Shown here in pieces: positions 3,287 through 27,878 of a DNA stretch of 28,275 nucleotides (position 1 is the stretch's first letter; every line of letters starts with the position of its first letter). The stretch is from a virus. The stretch is taken from the IMG/VR virus record IMGVR_UViG_3300047370_000299, positions 1 to 28,275 of that record; one strand, written 5' to 3'. The position numbers were made by a program, and so were the translations under genes. The notes beneath the pieces were generated by a model. That model made no database searches, was not told the origin of the DNA, and saw nothing but the letters and a program-made list of their open reading frames with translations.

Positions 3287-4142
3287 ACGCGGTTATCATA
3301 TACCAAATCTTGAATACATGATTACGACAAGTTGTGATCTGGCGTGTCCAGGTTGCGATAGGTTTATTGATCACAACTTACCTTTCGTAGAATCATTTGA
3401 AGACATTATTAAGAACATGGAAGCATGGGGTAAAAGACTTGACCCAGACCATGTTACTATCATTGGTGGTGAACCTTTGTTACACCCACGCATATACGAT
3501 ATACTAAAAGAAGCAAGACGCATATTTGATCATGCAGTTATAGAAGTTTATACTAACGGATTCTTATTACCTAAGCGTCCAGACATACTAAAGGTCCTTA
3601 AGAAAATAGGCAGAGCAAAAATTAGTTGTAGTTTACATAATAAAAATCCTAAGGTTAGAGAACTTATTGAAACTAATTTATGGAATGCTTTTTACAGCAA
3701 AGGCAACTGGAGTATGGTTAGTGATATTGCACACAAGCAAGATGATGTTGAAGTAGAAGTTACTGATCCTACAGAAGGTGGCTGGTATGATTATAGACAA
3801 ACGATCAACGGCAAACTAAAGCCTTGGACTGACAAAGATCCTGAAGCAAGTTATAAAGCATGTGGTGTAAACATATATCCTATAATATACAAAGGACAGT
3901 TATACAAGTGTCCTCCTATTAGTATGGTGCGTACATACTTGAGCAAAGCAGGACAAATAGATGATGTTGATTGGAAACCATATGTAGATTACGAAGGACT
4001 TAACATTGATGTACAAGAAAGTGAACTTGAAGAATTTGTTAAAAACATTTTCAAACCACACAGCATTTGTGCAATGTGTCCTGCTAATCCAAAACTAAAA
4101 CCACAAGACGAAGCAGTGGTTAAGAATGTAAAATTACTATGA
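3279..4142 (+). CDS. Radical SAM enzyme
   Basis: This 287-residue protein has the classic CxxxCxxC iron-sulfur motif at C19, C23 and C26 in TSCDLACPGC. The glycine-rich IIGGEPLLHPR strand of the SAM-binding half-barrel follows at about residue 62. A C-terminal cysteine region (ACGVNIYPIIYKGQLYKCPP, then CAMCP) could hold a twitch/SPASM-like auxiliary cluster. The start is a TTG overlapping the stop of the amidinotransferase gene, with GGAAAG at 3268-3273 as ribosome binding site. The next gene overlaps by ATGA. Co-translation with the amidinotransferase suggests action on the same product or peptide, but the reaction is unknown. Confidence 0.85.
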   Translation: MSKRGYHIPNLEYMITTSCDLACPGCDRFIDHNLPFVESFEDIIKNMEAWGKRLDPDHVTIIGGEPLLHPRIYDILKEARRIFDHAVIEVYTNGFLLPKRPDILKVLKKIGRAKISCSLHNKNPKVRELIETNLWNAFYSKGNWSMVSDIAHKQDDVEVEVTDPTEGGWYDYRQTINGKLKPWTDKDPEASYKACGVNIYPIIYKGQLYKCPPISMVRTYLSKAGQIDDVDWKPYVDYEGLNIDVQESELEEFVKNIFKPHSICAMCPANPKLKPQDEAVVKNVKLL

Positions 4143-5293
4143 AGAAAATACCTTTAATAACAATGGATAGTAATTCCAGAAGCCTTGGTACGTTTATCGA
4201 GAACTTCGAAGGTATTATTGAATTTGAAGGACATAATGATAAGGTACTTGAGAATCAAGATAAACTTGTAGTATTCTTTGAATATGTAGGAGACAATGAT
4301 TACACATTTGAAACATTTACTAACTTTTTTAAAACGTATAAAATACCGACCTTTCTTGTTATCGATGACTCATACGAGGGGCTTACAGACGATGCATTTC
4401 TTGCGTTGGTAGAAAAAACTGTACAGGACAATCCTTATATTGTTGACTGGGTAATACTAACAAACAACAAACTTCTTAACACAAAGAACAAAATATATTT
4501 TAATGTACAATTACATCTTGATAGATATGACGGCATTGATATACGCAATCATCTTAACAAAGACTGGAATGGTAACAGTAACTTACGTAAGAAAAAGTTC
4601 TTGTGTTTGAATAGGCAAGAACGTATGCATAGACTACAAGTAACACATCATTTGTTAAAGAATGATATTGCTAAACATACATACCTAAGTTGTCCACTTG
4701 GTGCATACGAACATGTATTCAACGGCAATAGCACACAACAAGAACATAGAAAGTATCTTGACAAAAGTTTATTAGATACTAATTTGCCAAAAGAATTTGT
4801 AACATTATTACAAGACAACTTGCCTGTAGAGTTAGACTTGAACGAAGTTACATATAAATCAATGTCAAGAAGTTTGCCAAGTGCAGATGATTATTACAAA
4901 GAAAGTTATTTTAGTATTGTTACTGAAGGAGACTTTTGGGATAATAATAGACAAGCATTTACAGAAAAAGCATTGAAGTGTTTCTTGTATAAGCACCCGT
5001 TTATTGTTGTTGGTTTGAAAGGAACGTTAGCACTATTGCGTGAACTTGGCTTTATGACCTTTAGTCAAATTATAGATGAATCATATGACAACGAAGAAGA
5101 TCCTTCAACAAGACTTGCAATGGCAATGGGTGAAGTTGATAAACTAAACAGTTATAATATACATGAACTACAAGACATGTACAACGAACTTACAACTATA
5201 TTAGAATATAATAGAGAACATTATCTTAATTTGTTTCAACAAAAACAGCCTGTTGAATTATTACATAAGATTAATTCTTTTGTAAATGATTAA
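4139..5293 (+). CDS. Putative glycosyltransferase-like protein
   Basis: This 384-residue protein has no sharp catalytic motif I can name. From about residue 150 it has KKKFLCLNRQERMHR. Later comes YFSIVTEGDFWD, then FTEKALKCFLYKHPFIVVG and LGFMTF with a nearby IIDESYD. That layout (acidic SIVTE strand, FTEK helix, HPFIVVG strand) resembles the C-terminal half of phage proteins related to fucosyltransferase or exostosin-type GT-B enzymes. It starts by ATGA overlap with the radical SAM gene. Its 3' end overlaps the convergent minus-strand radical SAM gene by 23 nt. The glycosyltransferase call is an inference from the pattern and from the many glycosyltransferase neighbours. Confidence 0.5.
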   Translation: MKKIPLITMDSNSRSLGTFIENFEGIIEFEGHNDKVLENQDKLVVFFEYVGDNDYTFETFTNFFKTYKIPTFLVIDDSYEGLTDDAFLALVEKTVQDNPYIVDWVILTNNKLLNTKNKIYFNVQLHLDRYDGIDIRNHLNKDWNGNSNLRKKKFLCLNRQERMHRLQVTHHLLKNDIAKHTYLSCPLGAYEHVFNGNSTQQEHRKYLDKSLLDTNLPKEFVTLLQDNLPVELDLNEVTYKSMSRSLPSADDYYKESYFSIVTEGDFWDNNRQAFTEKALKCFLYKHPFIVVGLKGTLALLRELGFMTFSQIIDESYDNEEDPSTRLAMAMGEVDKLNSYNIHELQDMYNELTTILEYNREHYLNLFQQKQPVELLHKINSFVND

Positions 5294-6209
5294 TAATAAA
5301 ATCTTTGTTAGGTAAGTTTAATTTTCGTGCATCACTAATAATACTATTCTTAGCATCAGCATCAAGGACATTGATATCTAAATCAAAAGGGAATGTTAGT
5401 ACGTTAATGTACCAACGTGTGTTTGTAAATCTTGTACAGAAGTCATGTAAGTCTTTTAGACCCATATAGTTGTTTTTGTGTAGCACAGAATTAAATTCTA
5501 ATGTGTACATATTGTCGTGAACCCAATCAATAAATTTAACAACGTCAGGCCATTTAGTTCCGCCACGTACACGTTCTCCAAGTTCACCTATGCCATCAAT
5601 GCTTAAGATAAAAGTTACTTTCTTATAGTGCCTTAGTTCTTCAACAACTTCATCATTAGGTATAAACGTTCCGTTAGTGTTGTATATGATTTCAACATGA
5701 CTTTTGTTTTTTATTTGACGTAGAAGTTTCAAATGCCTATTAGTAATTAACGGTTCGCCTCCAAGAAACAATATCTTTTCAAGCGAGTCTGGTACGTTTG
5801 TAACGTCATCAATCTCCATTAACTTGTGTTTAGGTGCTCCGTAAATTTCTTTTTCTTTTACAATCCAACTTGTACTAAACTCTGAATTACAACCATCACA
5901 AGTTAAATTACACAAGTTGTCAAACCCAATTTCAAGAAACTTTAGTTCAACTTTATCCATTGAATATTTTTCATTAAATTCTTCACGTAAACTTTTGTGC
6001 CCTATCTTTTCTTCATAGAAACACTTTTCACAGCCTTTAATAAATTCGCCTTTAGCACTTTGTTCACGTAGATCTTGATAGGCTGTACTATGTAATACGT
6101 TGTCAATGTCGCCATCAAATGTAGCAATAGAACGTTTGAATCTACAACAAGGATAGACTCTATTGCCACTTCTTATATTGGTGTGATTCCAAAATGCACT
6201 ACATTTCAT
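5271..6209 (-). CDS. Radical SAM protein with N-terminal cysteine cluster (twitch type)
   Basis: This 312-residue protein carries CxxxCxxC at C100, C104 and C107 in NLCNLTCDGC, with FLGGEPLI as the SAM-binding glycine motif at about residue 150. A separate cysteine-rich segment precedes the radical SAM core: C3, C21, C22, C60 and C63. This order, auxiliary cluster first, is seen in phage twitch-domain radical SAM proteins. It is the last gene of a three-gene minus-strand block and overlaps the gene upstream of it by 11 nt. Its end overlaps the plus-strand gene ending at 5293. The substrate is unknown; peptide or glycan modification fits the setting. Confidence 0.85.
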   Translation of the reverse strand: MKCSAFWNHTNIRSGNRVYPCCRFKRSIATFDGDIDNVLHSTAYQDLREQSAKGEFIKGCEKCFYEEKIGHKSLREEFNEKYSMDKVELKFLEIGFDNLCNLTCDGCNSEFSTSWIVKEKEIYGAPKHKLMEIDDVTNVPDSLEKILFLGGEPLITNRHLKLLRQIKNKSHVEIIYNTNGTFIPNDEVVEELRHYKKVTFILSIDGIGELGERVRGGTKWPDVVKFIDWVHDNMYTLEFNSVLHKNNYMGLKDLHDFCTRFTNTRWYINVLTFPFDLDINVLDADAKNSIISDARKLNLPNKDFIINHLQKN

Positions 6210-6624
6210 AATATGGTATCCAGTGTTTATCCAAGTCTTTCTTTATACATTTGGTTGCTAAATCTAATACAGATGTGTAATCAATTTTGGTCTTGTCTTC
6301 ATTTCTAAATGGATCAAACACAAATCTATTATCTTTATTTACTATGTCAAACTCAGTATCATGCATGTTGATAAACATAGGTATACTGGCGTCTAAGACG
6401 CATTTTAAGGGCCCTACAGTACACAAAGCATAGTCTACACGGGCAACAGCATACTCTAATGATTCAGGGGTATACACGGGCATTTTAACCAGGTTTACAC
6501 GTTCCAATAACCATTGTTCTATATGCTTGTCTAACACATCATCTCCTAAGGGTAACAATAATACATTGCTAAACTTATTTTGATTTGAGTTCTCGATTAG
6601 TGTTAGAACTTCTTCGTTTGTCAT
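6199..6624 (-). CDS. Conserved-looking protein of unknown function
   Basis: This 141-residue protein has alternating beta and alpha segments: SNVLLLPLGDD, LVKMPVYTPESLEYA, VDYALCTVGPLKCVLDA and IPMFINMHD. The region around VDYALCTVGP is faintly like the C-terminal nucleotide-sugar half of the GT-B proteins elsewhere in the window (compare YALINWSSNPATQAV followed by GIPVF), so it could be a one-domain remnant. That is a weak visual match only. It starts with an ATGA overlap of the upstream minus-strand gene and overlaps the radical SAM gene downstream, so the three form an operon. No function is claimed. Confidence 0.6.
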   Translation of the reverse strand: MTNEEVLTLIENSNQNKFSNVLLLPLGDDVLDKHIEQWLLERVNLVKMPVYTPESLEYAVARVDYALCTVGPLKCVLDASIPMFINMHDTEFDIVNKDNRFVFDPFRNEDKTKIDYTSVLDLATKCIKKDLDKHWIPYYEM

Positions 6625-7214: not shown

Positions 7215-7263
7215 GTAATTACTTATTGAGCAACCAGGAATAAACAATGTTATCTGGCACTAA

Positions 7264-7271
7264 ATTAAATA
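7264..7271 (+). promoter_or_regulatory. Late-promoter-like box ATTAAATA with leaderless geometry
   Basis: The box is followed by 5 nt and then the ATG at 7277, where family alignment places the start of the nucleotidyltransferase. A T4-like late start would fall on that A. An in-frame ATG at 7247 has AGGA at 7236-7239, so a second, leadered product 10 residues longer is possible. Confidence 0.5.
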
Positions 7272-7276
7272 CATTT

Positions 7277-8026
7277 ATGAAGTATGTGTTAGTTACAGGT
7301 GGCTTTGATCCACTACACTCAGGTCATTTGGCGTACTTTAAAGCGGCAAAGAAACTTGGTGACAAACTGGTTGTTGGACTAAACAGTGATGAGTGGTTGA
7401 CAGCAAAGAAGGGTCAACCTTTCATGCCATTTGCAGAACGCCTTGCTATCATACGTGAACTTGAATGTGTTGACAACGTATTAAGTTTTGATGACAGCGA
7501 TGGTACAGCATGTGGGGCAATCTTCAAACTGATGGCTACTACTGTAGGAGAGTATGTATTTGCTAACGGTGGTGACAGGGTTGATGGTAACGTACCCGAG
7601 TATGATACGTATGGTGACAAAATAGAATTTGTATACGGAGTAGGTGGCACAGACAAGATAAATTCAAGTAGTTGGATTTTAGAGAATTACAAATACCCAA
7701 AGACGAAACGTAGTTGGGGTTGGTATAGAGTGCTTGATGAACAGCAAGGTTATAAGGTTAAAGAACTTGTAATAGAGCCTGGCAATAGTTTGTCAATGCA
7801 ACGACATAAACATCGCAGTGAGAACTGGTATGTGTTGAAAGGTAAGTGTGTTATTGAAACAGAATGGGAAAGCAGATTAGAGTCAAGAGAATTAGATGCT
7901 AACCGTTCATACACAATAGATAAAAATGTTTGGCACAAAGGAATCAACAATACAGAAGAACACTGTCATATATTAGAAGTACAGTTTGGCGACAAGTGTA
8001 TTGAAGAAGACATAGAAAGAAGGTAA
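7277..8026 (+). CDS. Nucleotidyltransferase-cupin fusion for sugar-nucleotide metabolism
   Basis: This 249-residue two-domain protein starts with a nucleotidylyltransferase domain (about 1-135). It has GGFDPLHSGH, with the HxGH site at residues 14-17, and a late GGTDKINSS segment in the place of the ISSTxI motif. It resembles RfaE2/TagD-type enzymes that activate heptose- or glycerol-phosphate. Residues about 146-245 form a cupin like the C-terminal domain of mannose-1-phosphate guanylyltransferase/phosphomannose isomerase: WGWYRVLDE, then VIEPGNSLSMQRHKHRSENW with metal-site H178 and E182, and H220. The fusion may couple isomerization and activation of a sugar phosphate. A 7247 start with a ribosome binding site is the alternative. 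It opens the glycosyltransferase group. Confidence 0.8.
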   Translation: MKYVLVTGGFDPLHSGHLAYFKAAKKLGDKLVVGLNSDEWLTAKKGQPFMPFAERLAIIRELECVDNVLSFDDSDGTACGAIFKLMATTVGEYVFANGGDRVDGNVPEYDTYGDKIEFVYGVGGTDKINSSSWILENYKYPKTKRSWGWYRVLDEQQGYKVKELVIEPGNSLSMQRHKHRSENWYVLKGKCVIETEWESRLESRELDANRSYTIDKNVWHKGINNTEEHCHILEVQFGDKCIEEDIERR

Positions 8027-12132: not shown

Positions 12133-13386
12133 ATGAACCACGAATACAAAGTTGAAGATTTATTAGAAGCACTTGCAGGATTAACAGTCTTGCCGGGTAA
12201 GCATTGGAAAGATAAATGCTTTCAATTACATCCTGACAACTCAAAAGTCTTATCAAGCATTGCACGTCAGGTATTCAAAGGATCTGCATTAACCGAAAAG
12301 CAACACGAACTTGTTAAAAAGTTAATTCTTGAATATTACACAGAGCAGTTTGCTAATCAAAATATTGATGTTACCAAACACGTAGACAGTATTAGAGAAC
12401 CTTACAGACAAGTAGACAAAAGTCATTGGGTTAAGTTTACACAAAAGAATAAATTAGATTATGTAAGCATAAGATTTCCTTTTAGTAATGATGTAATTGA
12501 ACACGTACAAGATCTAAAAAAGGATAATGACGACACGTACTACTACGAAAAGCATACACATCACTTTGAAGCAAACGAACAAAACATTTACAAAGTATGC
12601 ACTGTTGCATATAAATTTAAAGAAGATTTTGAAATTGATAAGGACGTACAAGAATACTATGACGAACTTGTACAGTTTGATATGAACAAGGATAATATTG
12701 TTCCAGGCATATATGAGAATCAATTTAAGAACATGAATGAAATATTAATTCAAAAGTTATCTGATAGATATCCTAATCCAGATGAGAATATGCTTGAACT
12801 TTGGGACAAGCGTTACTTGTATGGCTTACATCATTTTCCAGACTTTTCGTGTCCACAAGTTTCAACACTTACACACAAAATTTTAGAAAGAAAGAATAGT
12901 TCAGTTGTTGTTAATTCAAATGAATGGTCGTTGGATCATGTGCTTGAAAGCCTACACGAACTAAACAGGTTCCCTTGTATTGTATTGTTGGAGCCTGAAT
13001 CAGCAACAGATCAATTAAGCATGTTATATCATGCAACTAAAGGTTTCTTACATAATCAAGATATATCCGTTATGTTTAGATTGGACAATAAGAACAATGG
13101 TGAATTTAACCAATTCGTCAGGGACAAGGCATTAAATAATAGTATAAGCAATTCAACAAGACTTGTTGTTGCTAATCGAAAGAAAATAACAAAACCTATT
13201 TTAAAGTCTGACTTTGATCCAGTAAGTGTACTTGTGCTTGGCAATTCAAGAGGATCTCACAATGTTGCAAGAGAATACGTAGAAAGATTTGATTTGAAAA
13301 TATTTTGGACAGCAGAAGATAGCATTATCTCAAGATACACAAGGCACAAAGATAACACATACACGACAGGAATACAAGCCATATGA
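12133..13386 (+). CDS. Unknown protein paired with UvsW, HARP-like middle region
   Basis: This 417-residue protein is not a family I recognise. Residues about 100-170 (KLDYVSIRFPFSNDVIEHV, then YYYEKHTHHFEANEQNIYKV) look like the HARP-type accessory module found before some SF2 helicase cores, in which a strand of the form RFPF is followed by a turn and a W/F-containing strand. The C-terminal half has hydrophobic strands (PCIVLLEP, VSVMF-like, TRLVVANRKK, VSVLVLGNSRG) typical of a RecA-like sheet, but no Walker A motif. It starts at an early promoter and ends in an ATGA overlap with UvsW. It may be a helicase partner or an inactive helicase relative. Confidence is high for the gene and low for the role. 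Confidence 0.55.
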   Translation: MNHEYKVEDLLEALAGLTVLPGKHWKDKCFQLHPDNSKVLSSIARQVFKGSALTEKQHELVKKLILEYYTEQFANQNIDVTKHVDSIREPYRQVDKSHWVKFTQKNKLDYVSIRFPFSNDVIEHVQDLKKDNDDTYYYEKHTHHFEANEQNIYKVCTVAYKFKEDFEIDKDVQEYYDELVQFDMNKDNIVPGIYENQFKNMNEILIQKLSDRYPNPDENMLELWDKRYLYGLHHFPDFSCPQVSTLTHKILERKNSSVVVNSNEWSLDHVLESLHELNRFPCIVLLEPESATDQLSMLYHATKGFLHNQDISVMFRLDNKNNGEFNQFVRDKALNNSISNSTRLVVANRKKITKPILKSDFDPVSVLVLGNSRGSHNVAREYVERFDLKIFWTAEDSIISRYTRHKDNTYTTGIQAI

Positions 13387-14843
13387 GCAGTTGCAGAATA
13401 GTAATACATGACGAAGTAAACTTTAAGGTTGAAAACTTATCTGTTGACGTTCGTAGAAAGATTGCAAACAAACTAAAGTTTCAAGTTCCGTATGCACGTT
13501 ACTTGCCACAGTACAAACTTGGTAGATGGGACGGCACTGTAGGCTTCTTTGGTTTAGGTGGTAGTGGTTACATTAATCATCTTGATGTTGTGTTAAAGGT
13601 ATTGAATGAGCAAGGTGTTGAAGTTGCAGAGATTGTAGACAACAGAGAAACACACAATTTAAAATTTAGTAAGATTGATGAAAACTATTTCGCGGCACGT
13701 AGTTGGCCTAAAGGACATCAACTTGAAGGACAGCCTATTGTATTACGTGACTATCAGGTAGAAACAATTAATAACTTCTTAGACAATCCACAAGCATTAC
13801 AAGAAGTTGCAACTGGTGCAGGTAAGACAATCATTACTGCATGTCTATCACACATTACAGAGAAACTTGGTCGGACGTTGGTTATTGTTCCTAACAAATC
13901 ACTTGTTACACAAACAGAAGAAGACTATGTTAACTGTGGACTTGATGTAGGTGTATACTTTGGTGATAGAAAAGAATTAGGTAGAACACATACTATTTGT
14001 ACTTGGCAAAGTTTAAACATACTTGACAAACGTAACAAAGACGGACAAAGTGTTTTAAGTCTTGCAGAGTTTTTAGATGACGTGAAAACTATTATCATTG
14101 ACGAAGTACACCAAGCAAAAGCAGATGTACTTAAGAAACTACTAACACAAAATTTAAAGAATGCACCTATACGTTGGGGACTAACAGGAACTATACCTAA
14201 GGAACAATTTGAGTTTCAAAGCATACTTGCAAGTTTAGGTCCTGTAATAGGAAACATCAGTGCAAAAGAATTACAAGACAAAGGTGTATTGAGTAAGTGT
14301 CATGTTAACATATTACAAATGATTGACACACAAGTACACAGAGATTATCAAAGTGAACTGAAGTATCTAACAACAAACGAAAGTCGTTTAGAATACATTG
14401 GTAAGTTAGTAAAATCTGTTTCACAATCAGGTAATACACTAATACTTGTTGATAGGATATCAGCAGGAGAAAAACTATTGGATCTCGTTCCAGATGCAGT
14501 GTTCGTCAAAGGCGATGTTAAACTTGCAGATAGAAAAGATGCATATGATGAAATTAAAGAAGGTACAAACAAAGTTATTATTGCAACATATGGAGTTGCG
14601 GCTGTTGGTATTAACATACCGCGTATCTTTAATTTAATTTTACTCGAGCCAGGCAAGAGTTTTGTCCGAGTAATTCAATCAATTGGCAGAGGCATAAGAA
14701 AGGCACAAGATAAGGACTTTGTACAGATATGGGACGTTACGTCTACATGCAAATATGCAAAGAGACATTTAACATCACGTAAAAAGTTTTACAAAGAAGC
14801 AGAATATCCATTCACTATTGAAAAAATAGATTGGCAAAAATAA
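13383..14843 (+). CDS. uvsW: UvsW-type DNA/RNA helicase
   Basis: This 486-residue superfamily-2 helicase is close to T4 UvsW in length (about 500). UvsW unwinds branched DNA and R-loops and moves T4 from origin-dependent to recombination-dependent replication. The N-terminal 115 residues match the UvsW DNA-binding part (YKLGRWDGTVGFF). Then come LRDYQ (Q-like motif), Walker A ATGAGKT at 143-149, DEVH at 240-243, TGT at 268-270, and motif VI QSIGRGIRK at 432-440. It is translated by ATGA overlap from the preceding gene and shares its early promoter. The next gene follows after 9 nt. Confidence 0.92.
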   Translation: MSSCRIVIHDEVNFKVENLSVDVRRKIANKLKFQVPYARYLPQYKLGRWDGTVGFFGLGGSGYINHLDVVLKVLNEQGVEVAEIVDNRETHNLKFSKIDENYFAARSWPKGHQLEGQPIVLRDYQVETINNFLDNPQALQEVATGAGKTIITACLSHITEKLGRTLVIVPNKSLVTQTEEDYVNCGLDVGVYFGDRKELGRTHTICTWQSLNILDKRNKDGQSVLSLAEFLDDVKTIIIDEVHQAKADVLKKLLTQNLKNAPIRWGLTGTIPKEQFEFQSILASLGPVIGNISAKELQDKGVLSKCHVNILQMIDTQVHRDYQSELKYLTTNESRLEYIGKLVKSVSQSGNTLILVDRISAGEKLLDLVPDAVFVKGDVKLADRKDAYDEIKEGTNKVIIATYGVAAVGINIPRIFNLILLEPGKSFVRVIQSIGRGIRKAQDKDFVQIWDVTSTCKYAKRHLTSRKKFYKEAEYPFTIEKIDWQK

Positions 14844-19370: not shown

Positions 19371-20054
19371 GTGTCTGACAAAAAATTTGTATGTCCATAC
19401 TGCGGTACATCATACTCAAGAGAAAAGACTCTTGCAGTTCATATGTGCGAAAAGAAAAGACGTGCATTGCAAAAGAATGAAAAGCATGTACAGTTAGGTT
19501 ATTATGCTTTTACAAGATTCTATGTACTGTGTCAAAACATTAAGAAAGAAAAGACATATCAAGACTTCTGTGACAGTCAATACTATAATGCATTTGTAAA
19601 GTTTGGATCTTTTGTAAACAACGTCCGACCACTGTATCCAGAAAAGTATATTGACTATGTAGTAACAAGTGGAGTTAAACTTGATCACTGGTGTAGAGAT
19701 GAACTGTATGAAAAGTATGCAATTGATATCCTAAAGAAGGAAGGGGTTGAAACAGCAGTAGAACGTTCAATCAAAACTATGATGGAATGGGCAGATGAAC
19801 AAGAAGCACCATGGAATGATTATTTTAGATACGCAAGTCTTAACAGAGTAACACAACATTTACGTGATGGTAAGATTAGTGCATGGCTTGTATTAAATTG
19901 TGCAAGTGGCAAAGAGATGCTATCCAAATTCAACGATGAACAACTTGGGATTGTATATGCAGTAATGGATCCACAACATTGGGCAATACGATTCAAACGC
20001 AGTCCTGTTGATGTAGAATTGGTAAAAGAGATTGCCCAAAAGGCTAACTTGTGA
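19371..20054 (+). CDS. Zinc-finger protein of unknown function
   Basis: I chose the GTG at 19371, 1 nt after the upstream stop and 9 nt after AAGGGG (19356-19361), giving 227 residues. A longer in-frame start at 19293 would overlap the previous gene by 77 nt and lacks this support. The N-terminus has a single finger C8, C11, H24, C26 in FVCPYCGTSYSREKTLAVHMC. The rest is helical and has WCRDELYEKYAIDILKKE and a C-terminal VDVELVKEIAQKA. A nucleic-acid-binding or adaptor role is plausible. An early promoter follows directly after its stop. Confidence 0.65.
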   Translation: MSDKKFVCPYCGTSYSREKTLAVHMCEKKRRALQKNEKHVQLGYYAFTRFYVLCQNIKKEKTYQDFCDSQYYNAFVKFGSFVNNVRPLYPEKYIDYVVTSGVKLDHWCRDELYEKYAIDILKKEGVETAVERSIKTMMEWADEQEAPWNDYFRYASLNRVTQHLRDGKISAWLVLNCASGKEMLSKFNDEQLGIVYAVMDPQHWAIRFKRSPVDVELVKEIAQKANL

Positions 20055-20083
20055 TTGACTTTAACCAATTAAACGTGTATAAT
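20055..20083 (+). promoter_or_regulatory. Sigma70-type early promoter with leaderless start
   Basis: TTGACT (20055-20060), 17 nt, TATAAT (20078-20083), beginning on the base after the previous stop codon. The expected start is 20090 or 20091, and the ATG is at 20091, so the mRNA should be leaderless or have one extra base. No ribosome binding site is available. It drives a chain of small genes and the mini-DnaE. Confidence 0.8.
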
Positions 20084-20090
20084 ATTAACT

Positions 20091-20432
20091 ATGAATAACA
20101 ACAATTATCAAGTAATCAGTAACCATATGGGACCTGATGGAGAAAGTATAGATAGACTTTACGGCAGTCCTGCAAGTGGAGGATCAATGAGATTGATCAA
20201 CAGAGATTACACACAGTATAAAGGTGGTATTCATAAACGTGCAATCACTTTAAAAGACATTGACAAGACAAAGTTTAGAAGTCATGTGTATGTTACAGAT
20301 GATGATAGATGGTTCAATAGAAGTGGTATGCCGATAAACAAACCAACTAACTTGGTGGGACAAAATGAAGACAAAAAAGAAAAAGAAGTCGAAAAAGAAA
20401 TCGACCGTAGTATTGTCGAAGCGGGTGAATAA
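20091..20432 (+). CDS. Small hydrophilic protein of unknown function
   Basis: This 113-residue protein is polar and glycine/asparagine-rich at the start (NNNNYQVISNHMGPDG), with a central YKGGIHKRAITLKDID and VYVTDDDRWFNRSG. It ends in a long charged run of K and E. No domain is recognised. It is the first gene after a consensus early promoter, and its ATG lies at the expected transcription start. Its lysine-coding 3' end is also read in another frame by the next gene, which overlaps it by 68 nt. Confidence 0.6.
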   Translation: MNNNNYQVISNHMGPDGESIDRLYGSPASGGSMRLINRDYTQYKGGIHKRAITLKDIDKTKFRSHVYVTDDDRWFNRSGMPINKPTNLVGQNEDKKEKEVEKEIDRSIVEAGE

Positions 20433-20502
20433 AAGAGAAATAGAAGGATACTACATACCCGGAGATGGTACAATACAAACATTGTACAAACCAAAATGGT
20501 AA
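20365..20502 (+). CDS. Tiny lysine-rich protein (45 aa)
   Basis: The protein begins MKTKKKKKSKKKSTVVLSKR, continues through VNKREIEGYYIP, and ends TLYKPKW. It overlaps the upstream gene by 68 nt in another frame and the downstream membrane peptide by 7 nt. The ribosome binding site is weak (GGTGGG). The strongly basic N-terminus fits nucleic-acid or acidic-protein binding. The position in a tightly packed chain supports it, but a chance ORF in A-rich DNA is possible. Confidence 0.45.
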   Translation: MKTKKKKKSKKKSTVVLSKRVNKREIEGYYIPGDGTIQTLYKPKW

Positions 20503-20588
20503 TACTGTACGGAATATTATTTCTATGTGCGTGTTACGTAATACCCGTATTCATGCTATGGTGCATGGACAAAGAAGAGCCAAAATAA
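20496..20588 (+). CDS. Tiny membrane peptide (30 aa)
   Basis: The 30-residue product MVILYGILFLCACYVIPVFM is followed by LWCMDKEEPK: one hydrophobic helix with three cysteines and a short charged tail. Its start overlaps the stop region of the lysine-rich ORF. The mini-DnaE ATG follows its stop by 1 nt, so all three could be read by coupled translation. There is no clear ribosome binding site. Similar one-helix peptides occur at 17264 in this window. Confidence 0.4.
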   Translation: MVILYGILFLCACYVIPVFMLWCMDKEEPK

Positions 20589-20589
20589 A

Positions 20590-21150
20590 ATGCCTGATAT
20601 AGATATAGACTTTGCTGATAGAGATGTAGTGCTTGGTAAGATCAAGCATCGTGTCGCTAAACTTAACACAGGCAAGAAACACAACACTGGTGTATACACA
20701 ACTGAGATTCCACACAATCCTGTGGACAACTTATCTACGATCGAACATAAGACAGCAGAAGATAGAGGTTACTTTAAATTAGACTTTCTAAATGTTTCGA
20801 TATATAAAGATGTAAAAGATGAACAGCATCTTTTAGAACTCATGAAAAAGGAACCATTATGGGATTTACTCACCGCTCCAGAATTCAGCAACAAATTGTT
20901 TCACGTAGGAGAACACAGTTCTCTTCTAAAGAAGTTGAAGCCAACAAGCATACAACAGTTGGCGGCAACGTTAGCAATAATAAGACCAGCCAAGCGACAT
21001 CTACAGGACAAGCCTTGGAAAGAGATACTACAAGAAGTATGGGTAAAACCTGAAGACGGTTCCTATTACTTTAAGAAGGCACATGCGATGGCTTATGCAC
21101 AAGCAATCGTAGTCCACATGAATCTGCTCTGCGAACAGATCCAACAATAA
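20590..21150 (+). CDS. Miniature DnaE-like (C-family DNA polymerase) protein
   Basis: This 186-residue protein reads like a condensed DNA polymerase III alpha subunit. PDIDIDF at residues 2-8 equals the palm motif that carries two catalytic aspartates in DnaE. HNTGVYTTEI (31-40) sits where DnaE has the HAAGVVI strand. YFKLDFLNV (61-69) equals the KxDFLG motif with the third aspartate. IQQLAATLAIIRPAK (121-135) equals the LIA/RPGP finger motif. FKKAHAMAYA (161-170) equals FNKSHSAAYA. The PHP, thumb, beta-clamp-binding and OB domains of the usual roughly 1100-residue protein are absent. It starts 1 nt after the previous stop and belongs to an early-promoter transcript. Polymerase activity is doubtful; a regulatory or accessory replication role is possible. 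Confidence 0.75.
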   Translation: MPDIDIDFADRDVVLGKIKHRVAKLNTGKKHNTGVYTTEIPHNPVDNLSTIEHKTAEDRGYFKLDFLNVSIYKDVKDEQHLLELMKKEPLWDLLTAPEFSNKLFHVGEHSSLLKKLKPTSIQQLAATLAIIRPAKRHLQDKPWKEILQEVWVKPEDGSYYFKKAHAMAYAQAIVVHMNLLCEQIQQ

Positions 21151-21522
21151 TTATTTAGGCTTTTTTACTAATTGTACTGAACGTCTTTTCACTCTTTTGA
21201 GTGTAAGGTTCTTTAAGTTCACTGTAGGTCCGTGAACAATTTTTACGTCTTTGCTGTTCATGTTAACTAAACAGTATCTAAACTTGTCCATCTCTTTGCG
21301 TAAAAAGATGTTGATAGGTATCATGCGGTTGCTTTCCCACCACCATGTTTCACCCATCTCTAAGAACAAGTCTCTGTGCCTATCTGTTTGTAACTCTGAG
21401 TAAACGTACATGCTTGTAATAAAATTATCCTGATTACAGACTATACCAACGTACTCATTGCCACCATAGGTAACAACACTTAAAAACGGAAATTTATCTT
21501 CTATATCTTTTCTTAACATCAT
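21151..21522 (-). CDS. Unknown minus-strand phage protein
   Basis: This 123-residue protein begins MMLRKDIEDKFPFLSVVTYG. The strand-rich centre contains EYVGIVCNQDNFITSMYVY and GETWWWESNRMIPINIFL. The C-terminal tail is very basic (TLKRVKRRSVQLVKKPK). I do not recognise a family. Its stop directly abuts the stop of the convergent mini-DnaE gene with no gap. It is divergent from the structural gene at 21541, with only 18 nt between starts, so a promoter for it must lie within that gene or overlap the late box. I see no convincing minus-strand promoter. Confidence 0.6.
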   Translation of the reverse strand: MMLRKDIEDKFPFLSVVTYGGNEYVGIVCNQDNFITSMYVYSELQTDRHRDLFLEMGETWWWESNRMIPINIFLRKEMDKFRYCLVNMNSKDVKIVHGPTVNLKNLTLKRVKRRSVQLVKKPK

Positions 21523-21527
21523 TCTCT

Positions 21528-21535
21528 AATAAATA
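21528..21535 (+). promoter_or_regulatory. Late-promoter-like box AATAAATA with leaderless geometry
   Basis: The box lies in the 18-nt divergent gap and is followed by GTATT and the ATG at 21541. In T4 numbering the A of the ATG is +1. There is no Shine-Dalgarno sequence. The downstream product looks like a virion protein, which fits a late promoter. Confidence 0.6.
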
Positions 21536-21540
21536 GTATT

Positions 21541-22329
21541 ATGCAACTTATACCCAGATATTTAGTCAATGCCAAAACCAATCTCGTAGCAAATGTGACT
21601 ACGGGCACAACAACGGAGTTAAGACAAGTGTACCAGAAAAACTTAAAAATTTTTAAAGGTATCGACAACAAGTTGACCTTTGAAATAAAAAATAATGACA
21701 GTAAGCCTATAAGCATACTTAATACTTATACGCCACACTTTACAGCGTTCGATCATGCTAAAACACAAGTGCTTACTAAAACAGGAACAATAAAAGAAAC
21801 ATCAACGCCTAACTATAAAGGTCAGTTTGAAGTTAATATTACTGCAAACGACTTACTAAACTTAGACGATCAGTTACTAACTTATACAATTTACTTGACT
21901 AAGGATAGTGACAACAGTGAAGTAATCACTTATGCTAACAGCCACTTTGAGATGATTGGTACCATCGAGTTGCACGGCGAAGCATTCCCTGGTCCGAAAG
22001 AAGCATACTCCGTTACGTCTTTCACAGAAGTTCAAAACTCTGACCCAGTTGAATACAACAGTGAATCAGTACCTGGTGAAGCGGCACTGAACGGCAATGA
22101 TGCTTTGCACACTGCGGCGATATACTCAACTGACTTTACAGGTACAGTAACTATCCAAGGTAGTTTGGAAAATCAAAATCCAAGTAATTGGGTAGACATT
22201 ACATCTGTAAGTTTAACTAATCCAACTGAACCTACTCCAGTTAATTTTAATGGTGTGTTTTCATATTTGAGAACCAAATATACAACAACAAATTCTGGAA
22301 CAATTGATAAAGTATTAGTCCGAAATTAG
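21541..22329 (+). CDS. Putative virion structural protein
   Basis: This 262-residue beta-rich protein has low cysteine content and many threonine/asparagine turns. The N-terminal half has KLTFEIKNNDSKPISILN and LLTYTIYLTKDSD, as in beta-sandwich tail or fiber domains. The C-terminal half has AIYSTDFTGTVTIQGSL, NWVDITSVSL and a final FNGVFSYLRTKY with GTIDKVLVRN. That Ngvf-xxxR-(x)n-GtvDKVLVRN end is familiar from structural proteins of marine T4-like phages. Neck, tail or fiber position cannot be told. Late-box expression and predicted leaderless start support a virion role. It sits alone among replication genes. Confidence 0.6.
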   Translation: MQLIPRYLVNAKTNLVANVTTGTTTELRQVYQKNLKIFKGIDNKLTFEIKNNDSKPISILNTYTPHFTAFDHAKTQVLTKTGTIKETSTPNYKGQFEVNITANDLLNLDDQLLTYTIYLTKDSDNSEVITYANSHFEMIGTIELHGEAFPGPKEAYSVTSFTEVQNSDPVEYNSESVPGEAALNGNDALHTAAIYSTDFTGTVTIQGSLENQNPSNWVDITSVSLTNPTEPTPVNFNGVFSYLRTKYTTTNSGTIDKVLVRN

Positions 22330-22364: not shown

Positions 22365-23321
22365 ATGAGCATTGTATTCGAAACACTACAGTTACATCTA
22401 CCGTCTAAGAAGAAAACTACTCCAAGTGGTTGGACTTCTTTCAATGCACCCTGTTGTGTACACAATGGAACCAATGCTGACAAAAGACAACGTGGCGGAC
22501 TAATCAATAACGGTGAAGGTGGTATAAGTTATCATTGTTTCAACTGTGGCTTCAAAGCAAGTTGGGTTCCAGGCAGACAGTTAAGTTATAAAATGCGTAA
22601 ACTGTTTCAATGGTTGAACACACCCGATGACGTAATTACTAAACTTGCTCTACAGTGTTTACAAATTGCAGAAGTAGGCATGAGTGACATAGAAGTAAAA
22701 CTGCCTAAGTTTGATAAGAAAGAATTACCCAAAGACAGTAAGCCTATCGGCAAAGACACACCCATAGAAGTTATACAGTATCTACAATCAAGAAACTTAT
22801 ACTTGGAAGATTATAACTTTCATTGGTCACCAGAATTAAAAGACAGAATCATTGTTCCGTTCTATCACAAAAAAGAAATAGTAGGATACACTGCACGTAA
22901 GATCAAAGATGGTAATCCAAAATATCTAAGTGATCAACAACCTGGATATGTATTCAATCTTGATGCACAAGATTATAATCGTGTACATACTATAGTTGTA
23001 GAAGGTCCTTTTGATGCTATTGCAGTAGAAGGCTGTGCATTGCTTGGTAGCGAAGTCAAAGATCAACAGGCCATGCTCCTTAATAGTTTAAATACAAATA
23101 AGATAGTTGTGCCAGACAGAGATGAGGCAGGTGCTAAACTTGTAGAACAAGCAATCGAACTTGGTTGGAGTATTAGTATGCCGGAATGGGGCGACAACAT
23201 CAATGACGTCAATGACGCTATAAAAGCATATGGTAAAATTTATACACTGTATTCAATTGTATCATCAAGTGAAAAGAATGAATTAAAAATTAAACTACGG
23301 AGTAAAAAATGGTTTGGTTAA
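22365..23321 (+). CDS. 61: T4 gp61-like DNA primase
   Basis: This 318-residue protein is near the length of T4 gp61 (342). It makes RNA primers for lagging-strand synthesis together with the gp41 helicase. The N-terminal zinc-binding part has C30/C31, H33, C58 and C61 (APCCVHNG and HCFNCGF). A TOPRIM core follows: VVEGPFDAIA with E213, and IVVPDRDEAG with D251 and D253; GDNINDVNDAI is the third acidic site. IIVPFYHKKEIVGYTARKI is also usual in this family. It starts directly at the expected transcript start of an early promoter. The next ATG is far downstream, so this start is firm. A 40-residue gene overlaps its end. Confidence 0.9.
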   Translation: MSIVFETLQLHLPSKKKTTPSGWTSFNAPCCVHNGTNADKRQRGGLINNGEGGISYHCFNCGFKASWVPGRQLSYKMRKLFQWLNTPDDVITKLALQCLQIAEVGMSDIEVKLPKFDKKELPKDSKPIGKDTPIEVIQYLQSRNLYLEDYNFHWSPELKDRIIVPFYHKKEIVGYTARKIKDGNPKYLSDQQPGYVFNLDAQDYNRVHTIVVEGPFDAIAVEGCALLGSEVKDQQAMLLNSLNTNKIVVPDRDEAGAKLVEQAIELGWSISMPEWGDNINDVNDAIKAYGKIYTLYSIVSSSEKNELKIKLRSKKWFG

Positions 23322-23432: not shown

Positions 23433-23678
23433 ATGATTATGACAGAGTTAACTAAAGGCATTGTGAATGTTGTAAAAGATACCTTGGACGAAAGTTTATT
23501 ACTCGCCATTATATTTTTTATTGGACATATTATAATAGCAATGATTGTTGTAAGTGCTATCACAGGTGCAAGTATCTGGGAAGCAGGAGCAGTTGCAATA
23601 ATAGAACCAGCAATTAATTCTGTATGGTTTTACATACTACACAAGATTTGGAAACGTTACCGCGGAGGTAAAAAATGA
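23433..23678 (+). CDS. DUF2061-like membrane protein
   Basis: This 81-residue protein has two hydrophobic segments: LLLAIIFFIGHIIIAMIVVS (about 22-41) and, after SIWEAGAVAII, NSVWFYILHKIWKRYRGGKK. The pattern of a glycine/alanine turn, then (W)EAGAVAIIEPxINxVWFYxLHKIW, matches the small DUF2061 membrane family, whose members end in a YYxHExxW-like helix. The function is unknown. The ATGA overlap with the carbamoyltransferase gene indicates co-expression. Confidence 0.6.
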   Translation: MIMTELTKGIVNVVKDTLDESLLLAIIFFIGHIIIAMIVVSAITGASIWEAGAVAIIEPAINSVWFYILHKIWKRYRGGKK

Positions 23679-24664
23679 TAATTTGGGGAATGGTAGGTAA
23701 CAGTCATGATGCATCATTGGCTGTGTTCAAAAAGGAAGATGACAAGTTAGAATTGTTGTGGGCGGCACTGAGTAAGGACTTCAGTAACGTTGATAACGAT
23801 CCGCACTTCAATCATACTATTATTGAAGTTGCAAGAAAGAACTTCGGTGAACCACATCACGTTGTTTGGTATGAACGTCCTATGTTAAAAAGCATTAGAC
23901 AGTTGTGGGCAGGTCAAGGTTGGTTGTTTGACGAAAACAATATTAAAAAATATTTAAAGCAGTGGAACGTTAATGTTCCTATATACACTGTATCACATCA
24001 CGAATCACATGCGGCATATGGTTATTACACCAGTGGTTGGAATCACGGTAACATAATTTGTATAGACAGCATTGGAGAGTTTGAAACACTAACAATGTGG
24101 AAAGGTGAGTCAGATTCACTAACAAAGATTAACAGTCAAAGTTATCCTAACAGTTTAGGACTTTGGTACAGTGCAATGACACAACGTTTAGGTTATGAAC
24201 CTAACAAACAAGAAGCAGTAGTTTGTACACTTGCAAAGTCAGGTAGTCCATACAAGTATAAACAACGGTTATACGATGACTTCTTTGATGTATCGTTTGA
24301 TCCATTATGTAATATCAAGTTCAAGGAGAACTGCCATAGAGGATTAAATTGGTGGGCACCAGAGATTAAGGATATTGATAACCTTGCGGCGGCTGTACAA
24401 CATGTATTTGAAGAACTATGTCTTAACCTTACATCGAGCATACAGTTTAATAATCCAAGTTTCAATCTTGCTGTAACAGGAGGTTGTGCTTTGAATCGAG
24501 ACGCAATGAACAAGGTTAGAAAGAACTGGAAAGGTTTTTGGATTCCACCCAATCCAGGTGATCCAGGATCATGTATTGGTGCTGTATTGGCTTTGGAGAA
24601 AAAACATATTGACTTTAATGAAGAAGTATGGTATAATAGTAGAACTAAAAAAGGATTATCTTGA
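23675..24664 (+). CDS. Carbamoyltransferase, N-terminal domain only
   Basis: This 329-residue protein belongs to the TobZ/NodU carbamoyltransferase family, which adds a carbamoyl group to sugars, antibiotics or other hydroxyl groups using carbamoyl adenylate. GNSHDASLAV (8-17) and SHHESHAAYGYY (107-118) carry the metal-binding histidines. SLGLWYSAMTQRLGY and LAVTGGCALN are the other Kae1-like ATP-site blocks. The usual C-terminal domain (total about 550-600 residues) is absent, so it may pair with another protein or do part of the reaction. It lies between gp61 and gp41, and its 3' end contains the gp41 promoter. It could modify a nucleotide or a glycan; neither is proven. Confidence 0.8.
   Translation: MIIWGMVGNSHDASLAVFKKEDDKLELLWAALSKDFSNVDNDPHFNHTIIEVARKNFGEPHHVVWYERPMLKSIRQLWAGQGWLFDENNIKKYLKQWNVNVPIYTVSHHESHAAYGYYTSGWNHGNIICIDSIGEFETLTMWKGESDSLTKINSQSYPNSLGLWYSAMTQRLGYEPNKQEAVVCTLAKSGSPYKYKQRLYDDFFDVSFDPLCNIKFKENCHRGLNWWAPEIKDIDNLAAAVQHVFEELCLNLTSSIQFNNPSFNLAVTGGCALNRDAMNKVRKNWKGFWIPPNPGDPGSCIGAVLALEKKHIDFNEEVWYNSRTKKGLS
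24609..24637 (+). promoter_or_regulatory. Sigma70-type early promoter for gp41
   Basis: TTGACT (24609-24614), 17 nt, TATAAT (24632-24637), within the end of the carbamoyltransferase gene. The start should be near 24644, giving a 20-nt leader with AAGGA (24651-24655) 8 nt before the ATG at 24664. The -35 hexamer and spacing equal those of the other early promoters. Confidence 0.75.
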
Positions 24665-26070
24665 TGAATAAAGAGTATGGTTATGATGTGCAGAAAGTAT
24701 ATCTGCAAATGATGTTGAGCGATGCACAATCTTTTGTGCGTTGTCAAACTATCTTTGATCATACTTTATTCGATCGCAAATTACAACCAGCGGCAGAGTT
24801 TATGAACAACTATGTTGCAGAACACAATGCATTGCCTACAGAAGAAATGGTTAATGCAAGTTGTCAAACTGATCTTAAGATTCCAGAAGGACTACGTGAA
24901 GAACACTATGATTGGTTATTGCAAGAGTTTGAAACGTTTACAAGACACAAAGGACTTGAACGTGCAATACTTGAAAGTGCAGAACTACTTGAAAAAGGTG
25001 AGTATGGTCCTGTAGAAGACAAGGTCAAGAACGCAATCCAGGTAGGACTACAAAAGGACTTAGGTATTGATTACTTTGATAATCCTAAAGCAAGACTGCT
25101 TGGACTAAAAGATAACAATGGACAAGTAAGCACAGGTTGGAACACACTTGATAGAAAACTGTTTGGCGGATTCAATAGAGGAGAACTAAACATCTTTGCA
25201 GGTGGATCAGGAGCAGGTAAGAGTTTGTTCTTGGCAAACTTGGGTGTGAACTGGGCATTGAATGGAATGAATGTTTGTTATCTAACTTTTGAATTGAGTG
25301 AGGCATTGGTAGCAATGCGTGTTGATAGTATGTTCACAGACATTCCAACTAAAGAAATATTTAAGGATCTTGATGGCGTTGAGATGAAGGTTAAACTAAT
25401 TGGTAAGAAGGCTGGAGCATTCCAAGTCAAGTATATGCCAAGTGGTAAGAACGCAAACGACATTAGAAGTTATTTGAAAGAGTATGAGATTAAAACAGGA
25501 CGTAAGATTGATGTACTGTTGGTTGACTACTTAGACTTGATGATGCCTATGAGTAGAAAGGTATCGCCAAGTGATTTGTTTATTAAAGATAAATTTGTAT
25601 CTGAAGAACTACGTAACCTTGCAATGGAATTAGGTTGTGTGTTTGTAACTGCGGCACAGTTGAATAGAGGTGCGGTAGAAGAAATAGAATTTGATCATTC
25701 GCACATCAGTGGTGGACTATCTAAGATACAAACAGCAGATAACGTGATTGGTATCTTTACAAGTAGAGCAATGCGTGAACGTGGTAGATATCAGATACAA
25801 CTTATGAAAACAAGAAGCAGTAGTGGTGTTGGTGCAAAGATAGATTTAGAATTTGACATTGATAGTTTGCGTATTAGAGATCTTGAAGAAGATGATGACA
25901 CATCAAACTATTCAAGCAGTACAGGTAGTTCGGTACTAAAAGGTTTACAAAGAACAACTGATACATCAGAACCACCAGAGCCCGATGCAGGTGATCCTGT
26001 CAAAAAGATAAGAGCAGATACTGACAGTACCAAACTAAGACAGTTCATTGGAAACCTTGGCAATGATTAA
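24664..26070 (+). CDS. 41: T4 gp41-like replicative DNA helicase (DnaB family)
   Basis: This is 468 residues from the ATG at 24664 (TGATG overlap with the upstream stop); T4 gp41 has 475. It is the ring helicase that works with the gp61 primase. The N-terminal helical part spans about 1-130. The RecA core has GWNTLDRKLFGGFNRGEL, Walker A GGSGAGKS at 180-187, LTFELSE after it, and a Walker-B-like VLLVDYLDLM. FVTAAQLNRGAV, then HISGGLSKIQTADNVIGI complete the DnaB-type core. The tail is acidic and serine-rich. A TTG at 24661 is in frame but less likely. An oxygenase gene overlaps the end by 8 nt. Confidence 0.93.
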   Translation: MNKEYGYDVQKVYLQMMLSDAQSFVRCQTIFDHTLFDRKLQPAAEFMNNYVAEHNALPTEEMVNASCQTDLKIPEGLREEHYDWLLQEFETFTRHKGLERAILESAELLEKGEYGPVEDKVKNAIQVGLQKDLGIDYFDNPKARLLGLKDNNGQVSTGWNTLDRKLFGGFNRGELNIFAGGSGAGKSLFLANLGVNWALNGMNVCYLTFELSEALVAMRVDSMFTDIPTKEIFKDLDGVEMKVKLIGKKAGAFQVKYMPSGKNANDIRSYLKEYEIKTGRKIDVLLVDYLDLMMPMSRKVSPSDLFIKDKFVSEELRNLAMELGCVFVTAAQLNRGAVEEIEFDHSHISGGLSKIQTADNVIGIFTSRAMRERGRYQIQLMKTRSSSGVGAKIDLEFDIDSLRIRDLEEDDDTSNYSSSTGSSVLKGLQRTTDTSEPPEPDAGDPVKKIRADTDSTKLRQFIGNLGND

Positions 26071-27394: not shown

Positions 27395-27613
27395 ATGCAC
27401 CGTTTTGTTATAATGAGGAATGGCGAACTCGAGACATACACACAATGGGAAGATATCCCACAAGTGTTTGAACACGTGATCGAATTTGCACCCACTATGC
27501 CAGAACCACCGCACACTGAACAACAACATCAAGAGATGGGTCAGTGGAACACAAGATTACAAGAACTTGTAAAGAGGGAGAGAGATTATGCCAGCAGTAA
27601 CAAGAATAGGTGA
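27395..27613 (+). CDS. Small unknown protein next to the PAAR gene
   Basis: This 72-residue protein begins MHRFVIMRNGELETYTQWED, followed by a proline-rich APTMPEPPHTEQQ stretch and a helix (WNTRLQELVKRERDY). I do not recognise a family. It overlaps the PAAR gene by 26 nt. Expression from a late box and proximity to PAAR suggest a baseplate or virion assembly role, which is inference only. Confidence 0.55.
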   Translation: MHRFVIMRNGELETYTQWEDIPQVFEHVIEFAPTMPEPPHTEQQHQEMGQWNTRLQELVKRERDYASSNKNR

Positions 27614-27878
27614 CGCCGACGTCGATCACTGTAGTGGAATGACAAGAGCAGTAGGCTCTCCGAATGTATTTGCCAACAACATACCTGTGTCAAGACAGGG
27701 CGATGACAACACTGGTCATCTGTTACCGGGTGTGCCATGTCCAAGTCACTCAGCACCAATTGAAGTGGGCAGTCCCACAGTTATCACCAACAATGTAGGA
27801 ACGGGAAGAGTAGGAGATGCTATCGCAGGCTGTACGAGTGTAGCCGCGGGTAGTCCAAATGTTTTTGCTGGTCCTTAA
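27588..27878 (+). CDS. PAAR-domain spike-tip protein (gp5.4-like)
   Basis: This 96-residue protein consists of PAAR repeats: MPAVTRIGDADVDHC, then GSPNVFANNIPVSRQGD with TGH, a central PCPSHSAPIEVGSPTVITNN, and a final VGDAIAGCTSVAAGSPNVF. Conserved H and C residues (H14, H44, H54, C82) should bind the structural metal. PAAR proteins cap the central spike of phage and type VI tails; in T4 this is gp5.4. GAGGGAGAGAG before the ATG is a good ribosome binding site. The length fits a stand-alone tip. The next gene is convergent. Confidence 0.9.
   Translation: MPAVTRIGDADVDHCSGMTRAVGSPNVFANNIPVSRQGDDNTGHLLPGVPCPSHSAPIEVGSPTVITNNVGTGRVGDAIAGCTSVAAGSPNVFAGP

Follow-up and report, generated by a model that had tools for sequence, protein, structure and literature searches.

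The closest described counterpart of the gene reported here is the predicted split minimal DNA polymerase III (Pol III) alpha subunit that occurs beside a family-B polymerase in the "group 2.2" jumbo phages, within which Atu_ph07 is named. There, it is suggested that the two enzymes cooperate in the synthesis of one strand, or in repair (Iyer et al. 2021, PMC7824862). The gene analyzed here lies in the IMG/VR virus record IMGVR_UViG_3300047370_000299, of which positions 1 to 28,275 (28,275 nucleotides) form the stretch hereafter called the window. It is an open reading frame (ORF) of 186 residues with ATG as its first start codon (all coordinates in Table 1), and its product is a C-family (DnaE-type) polymerase relative by homology and not by chance. 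Judged from its model, the protein consists of the Mg-binding palm strand and shortened fingers, and it would form the C-terminal half (C-half) of a C-family DNA polymerase core made from two proteins. An earlier note on the window, made from the sequence alone, had considered such a C-family fragment unexpected. Since that split enzyme had been published before (PMC7824862), the window contributes a further member of a kind already known.

Compared with the group 2.2 system, the window has the counterpart of the separately encoded C-terminal protein that binds Mg and the DNA template, and its relatives show the same combination of a present family-B polymerase and absent other Pol III domains. 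No differences from group 2.2 were found, the window being known only from a 28-kb piece. The two group 2.2 halves correspond to PHROGs 11127 and 11778 by our matching, which used their description and shared phages only. Relative to the text of PMC7824862, the present analysis adds the split point, the motif and terminus of the partner protein, the co-occurrence of the halves (59/60 and 11/12 records), the absence of the PHP domain in 15 records, the DnaE-type active site and the wide occurrence in IMG/VR.

With bacterial DnaE the window protein shares the fold of palm and fingers, the equivalents of D401, D403, D555 and D405, and the K-x-D, RP and K-x-H-A motifs. It differs from DnaE in lacking the PHP domain, the first palm half and the C-terminal domains, as well as, by spacing, the thumb, and it counts 186 residues against 1160 in E. 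coli DnaE. The PHP domain is described as universal in the C family (PMC12926913). In the 186-residue protein it is absent, the full length aligning to palm and fingers only. Because a complete palm and a PHP domain were both tested for and found absent, the protein is not a DnaE proper. PolC has the C-family fold as well, and the modelled N-terminal half of a relative matches PolC 3f2b with a Z of 8.8, but the D405 position is Asp in the window protein and Asn in PolC.

Pol III alpha is also divided over two ORFs in Corynebacterium phage P1201 (gp58/gp59). There, the genes are adjacent, the split falls after the KLDCL motif and not before PDxDxD, and a PHP-like N-terminus appears by eye to be kept. 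P1201 was rejected as an example of the same split because its break lies elsewhere. Its two ORFs (L348:16-3376) slightly overlap, and the break past the third-aspartate motif represents a second, different break point. The break in the DnaE of Bacteroides phage BS-TP1 almost coincides with the split in the window's relatives (FERFLLPERAG / PDVDNDF), but PHP is kept according to its annotation, a Dda helicase gene separates the ORFs (L100:1825-3558 and 4795-6312, PQ571274.1), and extra sequence is present at both ends of the break. Despite the nearly identical break place, BS-TP1 was set apart by this extra sequence. By its motifs, the extra sequence looks intein-like, and a split intein could be the origin of such polymerase splits.

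Family, motifs and predicted fold of the C-half

The C-half matched PHROG 11778 ("DNA polymerase") with an E-value of 9.4e-63, residues 3-184 covering positions 8-195 of the 197 in the profile, while PHROG 405 (1190 positions, "DNA polymerase") was matched with 1.9e-5. These matches and the fold comparison bear out the DnaE relationship proposed in the earlier note. Its five DnaE motifs are all present, in the right order within 186 residues and at confirmed positions, beginning at residues 3 (DIDIDF), 31 (HNTGV), 63 (KLDFL), 132 (RPAK) and 161 (FKKAHA).

Homologues of the C-half were found in 65 phage records, in 61 of which the cover was at least 80%, and at least 546 relatives are encoded among the 599 pattern-selected stretches listed from IMG/VR. 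From host genome contigs, one relative was found among at least 594 pattern-matched stretches listed, on a 3.7-kb contig of an archaeal metagenome-assembled genome, and a plasmid scan for the C-half gave no matches. The archaeal contig, PUKM01000272.1, is binned as a Natrialbaceae archaeon and is perhaps a stray phage contig in that bin. The ratio of nonsynonymous to synonymous substitution rates (dN/dS) of the C-half was 0.10-0.19 against four relatives, with dS saturated for three more distant ones, and neutral decay is therefore disfavoured. The large deletions relative to DnaE would suit a host dnaE that was captured, lost its function and is decaying. However, the purifying selection indicated by these ratios and the conservation across phages of Pseudomonas, Klebsiella, Agrobacterium, Vibrio and Salicola leave this explanation hardly credible.

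Residue conservation was assessed in a set of 90 loci with 77 distinct sequences, among them that of the window; the set was gathered with six alternative patterns, including MPDIDIDF, and from similarity hits. The positions invariant in 77/77 include those marked so in Table 1. Among them are the three aspartates D3, D5 and D65, whose conservation in orthologs had been proposed as a check, and the motifs do not show the free variation that the earlier note had named as a refuting outcome. In the alignment to mycobacterial DnaE, PDIDIDF is paired with PDIDIDF, KLDFL with KMDFL and RPAK with RPG, and FKKAHA is likewise aligned. HNTGV is taken to correspond to the DnaE strand called HAAGV in the earlier note. 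According to PMC3919608, D401, D403 and D555 (E. coli numbering) are absolute across the C family, while D405 is absolute in DnaE and Asn in PolC. With D7 as the equivalent of D405, the active site of the C-half reads as DnaE-type and not PolC-type. In a separate alignment (A3), 46 of the 65 rows come from a scan whose pattern fixes the residues of DxDID, and D3, D5 and D7 in those 46 rows are therefore no evidence. For the C-half of Atu_ph07 (L002:10001-10546), the RefSeq start at 10073 falls past PDIDIDF, and an upstream in-frame ATG retains the motif; the annotation consequently omits two catalytic aspartates.

The likeness to the host DnaE core could in principle allow binding to host subunits, so that the C-half, alone or with host Pol III, would regulate the host polymerase or act as its decoy, but nothing was found that points to this directly. 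A decoy would not need the catalytic aspartates, though they are invariant in 77/77, and a matching N-terminal half is conserved alongside, which makes this role very improbable.

Sequence-only comparison with solved structures failed or gave weak matches, and a comparison of folds was therefore needed. A search of solved structures with the single window protein returned no DnaE chains, its lone match (E 1.6) being unrelated. The AlphaFold model of the C-half, built from 65 alignment rows, reached a predicted local distance difference test score (pLDDT) of 93.0 and a predicted template modelling score (pTM) of 0.81. In VIA-align it was superposed on Thermus DnaE 461-838 (Z 9.7, root-mean-square deviation (rmsd) 3.8, 184 aligned) and on E. 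coli DnaE 400-781 (Z 8.7, rmsd 3.9, 180 aligned), the latter agreeing with the palm and fingers similarity that the earlier note had put up for a structural check. The top 13 VIA-align matches were all polymerase entries (Pol III alpha or "DNA polymerase") with Z of 6.3-9.7, followed by an unrelated chain at 3.2. Similarly, the first 15 Foldseek rows against the PDB were all Pol III alpha or "DNA polymerase", with a best E of 1.7e-3 and 0.63 for the next row. Compared with the mycobacterial enzyme, the motif spacing in the alignment is shorter by ~105 residues from the second aspartate to the third and by ~87 from RP to KxHA. Judging by the first of these gaps, the thumb is likely to be absent.

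The partner protein and the co-occurrence of both halves

The 186-residue protein starts at the PDIDIDF strand and does not contain the first palm half with the GRGS nucleotide-binding motif, which in relatives is a separate protein of ~170-185 residues (N-half). Two alternatives raised in the earlier note are affected by this. A self-sufficient minimal polymerase is contradicted by the separate GRGS palm half, and a domesticated nucleotide-binding protein would describe the partner better, as the triphosphate-binding motif is found there. Phage CBB is described as having a "truncated" Pol III alpha of 172 residues, CBB_328 (PMC5259590), and a Pol III alpha, gp316, is reported for Atu_ph07 (PMC6102473). 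CBB gp328 belongs to PHROG 11127 (E 1.7e-87), and its residues 96-171 exceed the PF07733 cut-off.

G-x-GRGS is invariant in eight aligned N-halves of named phages, which were collected through their similarity to one member of the group and which all terminate at EF[LF] plus at most 3 residues. The motif also occurs in 49/49 N-halves of alignment A5, many rows of which were chosen by that motif, the scan rows having been picked by two alternative patterns of which one fixes GRGS. Of 80 N-half loci, 37 were examined for their ORF ends, and all 37 have an [ED][FY][LFM] motif no more than 10 residues from their end. The N-half profile terminates at E. coli DnaE 393 (E 2.6e-4). The model of a relative's N-half (L101:1483-2037; pLDDT 88, pTM 0.68) maps with residues 79-185 to E. 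coli DnaE 279-393, with Z of 8.3-13.1 over 16 entries and 2.9 for the next. Residues 1-78 of this N-half were matched by no row of the fold comparison. The two halves tile E. coli DnaE 279-781 without overlap and with a gap of ~6 residues (393 vs 400), which in the models places the split point just before the catalytic strand, to within ~6 residues.

Co-occurrence was assessed with 60 listed of the 65 C-half phage records and 60 listed of the 87 N-half records. The N-half was also present in 59/60 listed C-half records (~53 after removal of GenBank/RefSeq twins), the sole exception being PP728206, a record of 109,507 bases. A family-B polymerase was detected in 14/15 large related records, while the PHP domain (PF02811) was detected in 0/15 and in 14/14 control genomes. 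A DnaQ-type exonuclease (PF00929) occurred in 7/15 large records and was for that reason rejected as an obligatory third part. The family-B matches fall into two open frames in both Atu_ph07 (W01 212336-213688; 418 and 578 residues) and Paride (W02 88906-92683; 825 and 379 residues), and the family-B polymerase may therefore be in pieces too.

A proposed two-protein polymerase core and its alternatives

In the proposed arrangement, the C-half would contribute the metal-binding aspartates D3, D5 and D65, the DnaE-type D7, K63 and the shortened fingers, while the N-half would provide the nucleotide-binding palm half with GRGS. Neither half is likely to be catalytic alone, because the nucleotide-binding motif is carried by the partner and the metal ligands by the C-half. 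The halves would bind non-covalently, with the C-terminus of the partner (E. coli DnaE 393) meeting the N-terminus of the C-half (~400), and the reassembled core would have a complete palm and reduced fingers, without PHP and without thumb. It may copy DNA as the second polymerase of a T4-like replisome whose main enzyme is of family B, and its task is likely a special one, e.g. gap filling, lagging-strand primer handover or repair. We infer with good but not full confidence, for assembly, activity and task alike, that the two halves form one C-family polymerase core serving the T4-like replisome beside family B. That two proteins of ~180 residues reconstitute a working C-family polymerase in trans, PHP-less and thumb-less beside a family-B replicase, is slightly favoured over its opposite. 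To our knowledge, such a two-protein core, if working, would be the smallest C-family DNA polymerase.

Several results weigh against this proposal. No experimental study or biochemistry of the split enzyme was recognised among the open-licence papers listed, and poor DNA grip would be expected without a thumb. The Pfam fingers domain scored 14.5 bits in the 186-residue protein, below the cut-off of 22; the C-half family profile matched solved DnaE structures with a best E of 0.012, close to an unrelated enzyme at 0.073; and Foldseek alone gave no match with E <0.001 against the PDB. In eight named phages the genes of the halves are separated by 15-225 kb, and in one IMG/VR record by 227 kb; locations so distant give no direct sign of co-expression. 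In the window record, neither the partner (by the N-half profile) nor a family-B polymerase was found, a 28-kb fragment being unable to show them, and PF07733 and PF00136 had no matches; from its relatives, the phage of the window would be expected to encode the partner. Of the IMG/VR records, 4/17 fetched by the C-half and 3/10 fetched by the N-half contained the other half as well, with G002 in both sets. Fragmentation may explain the missing second half in the smaller IMG/VR records. Both halves occurred in 11 of all 12 distinct fetched records >230 kb, a cut that was set after seven of the twelve had been seen; the five later ones are a fresh test, and the second half was found in 5/5. The twelfth record, G001, has neither the N-half nor a family-B polymerase, as expected of a fragment.

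The assembled core might also be a specialised nucleotidyltransferase, for end-tailing, primer synthesis or short gap filling, for example, and not a processive polymerase. This would agree with the absence of PHP from 15 related records, with the ~105 residues missing at the thumb place and the ~87 missing between RPxK and FKKAHA, with the family-B replicase already present in 14/15, and with the core fold, which is that of the Pol beta nucleotidyltransferases (PMC7824862). The fingers motifs are, however, strongly conserved, and there is synteny with primase and replicative helicase genes, so that a specialised transferase is held to be unlikely.

If the two-protein core is real, it offers a natural test of the minimal needs of a bacterial replicase core, and it could be left over from an ancestral form or serve as a model of one, as proposed by Iyer et al. 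(PMC7824862). Phages in which a minimal bacterial-type core is divided over two genes beside an unrelated DNA polymerase make it testable how small a C-family enzyme can be and still copy DNA, and for what reason a T4-like replisome would retain two polymerases. For direct tests, the place of the split, the family of the partner and the invariant catalytic residues are specific enough.

Gene neighbourhood, promoter and other genes of the window

Table 1. Features of the window at and around the C-half gene, with residue counts from the set of 77 sequences.
Feature	Position	Strand	Evidence or remark
Putative C-half, from a split minimal Pol III alpha of the C family	20590..21150	+	PHROG 11778, AlphaFold, VIA-align
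PDIDIDF, equivalents of E. coli D401, D403 and DnaE-specific D405	20593..20613	+	D3/D5/D7 77/77
HNTGV, presumed counterpart of the DnaE HAAGV strand	20680..20694	+	H31, G34 invariant 77/77
KLDFL, third catalytic aspartate (E. coli D555 equivalent) and K63	20776..20790	+	K63, D65 77/77
RPAK, fingers motif replacing RPGP	20983..20994	+	R132, P133 77/77; K135 76/77
FKKAHA, fingers motif matching DnaE FNKSHA	21070..21087	+	H165, Y169 invariant 77/77
Convergent 123-residue gene, in place of the relatives' convergent small gene	21151..21522	-	PHROG 11637, unknown function
DNA helicase (UvsW type by PHROG and synteny)	13383..14843	+	PHROG 16, E 1.8e-87
DNA primase	22365..23321	+	PHROG 47, E 4.2e-35
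DnaB-like replicative helicase	24661..26070	+	PHROG 19, E 5.9e-68
Sigma-70-like promoter TTGACT-17-TATAAT	20055..20083	+	11/12 matches; upstream of the preceding 113-residue ORF

The gene order in the window runs from the upstream helicase over the C-half, the convergent PHROG 11637 gene and a virion-type gene (PHROG 14467) to the primase and DnaB, with a small ORF and a carbamoyltransferase-like gene between the last two. The latter (window 23675-24664) encodes a protein with a carbamoyltransferase N-terminal domain (Pfam). In Atu_ph07, Paride, Phosso, RaK2, SCTP-2, CBB and Vibrio phage 2.275, a small convergent gene follows the C-half, and beyond it at least one further gene precedes the primase and/or replicative helicase. 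A UvsW or DNA helicase lies upstream of the C-half in Paride, Phosso, RaK2, SCTP-2 and CBB. The replication-gene context reported in the earlier note was thereby confirmed, by the helicase, primase and DnaB of the window and by the same order in relatives. XacN1 differs, with no primase or helicase annotated in the stretch shown around its C-half, and the CM1 record carries no annotation.

The N-half lies near a clamp-loader gene in CBB, RaK2, Paride, Atu_ph07, SCTP-2 and XacN1, and an "AAA-ATPase" takes the clamp-loader place in Phosso, while the stretch shown for Vibrio phage 2.275 has no annotated clamp loader. Together with the position of the C-half next to primase and/or helicase genes, the clamp-loader vicinity in those six phages would fit a co-opted replisome scaffold, in which the pair keeps fold and nucleotide site and acts only as an accessory of clamp loader or helicase. 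As the metal-binding and triphosphate-binding residues are fully conserved, we give such a scaffold very little credence.

The consensus early promoter on which the gene had been said to sit was recovered with 11/12 matches, and its boxes are kept in relatives, but it stands before the preceding 113-residue ORF, 507 bases ahead of the C-half ATG, and not before this gene. Promoter boxes are found at -535 to -528 in five relatives (L006, L007, L009, L010 and L013), where the spacer differs. A looser promoter pattern occurs within 800 bases upstream in 26/68 distinct regions, against 3.5 expected from plain base shuffles. Promoter-like sites in 19900-21700 (5 observed) are no commoner than in shuffles (mean 6.4), and support for the promoter therefore rests on its upkeep in close relatives.

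Among the other genes of the window, a 2OG-Fe(II) oxygenase (Pfam) is encoded at 70-816, and several further ORFs look similar by eye. Radical SAM proteins are encoded at 3279-4142 and 5271-6209, one of the two having a SPASM domain, near genes that by eye resemble glycosyltransferases. In the product of 7247-8026, a cytidylyltransferase-like domain is fused to a cupin domain of the mannose-6-phosphate isomerase type, and 27588-27878 encodes a PAAR-motif protein, perhaps the tip of a tail spike.
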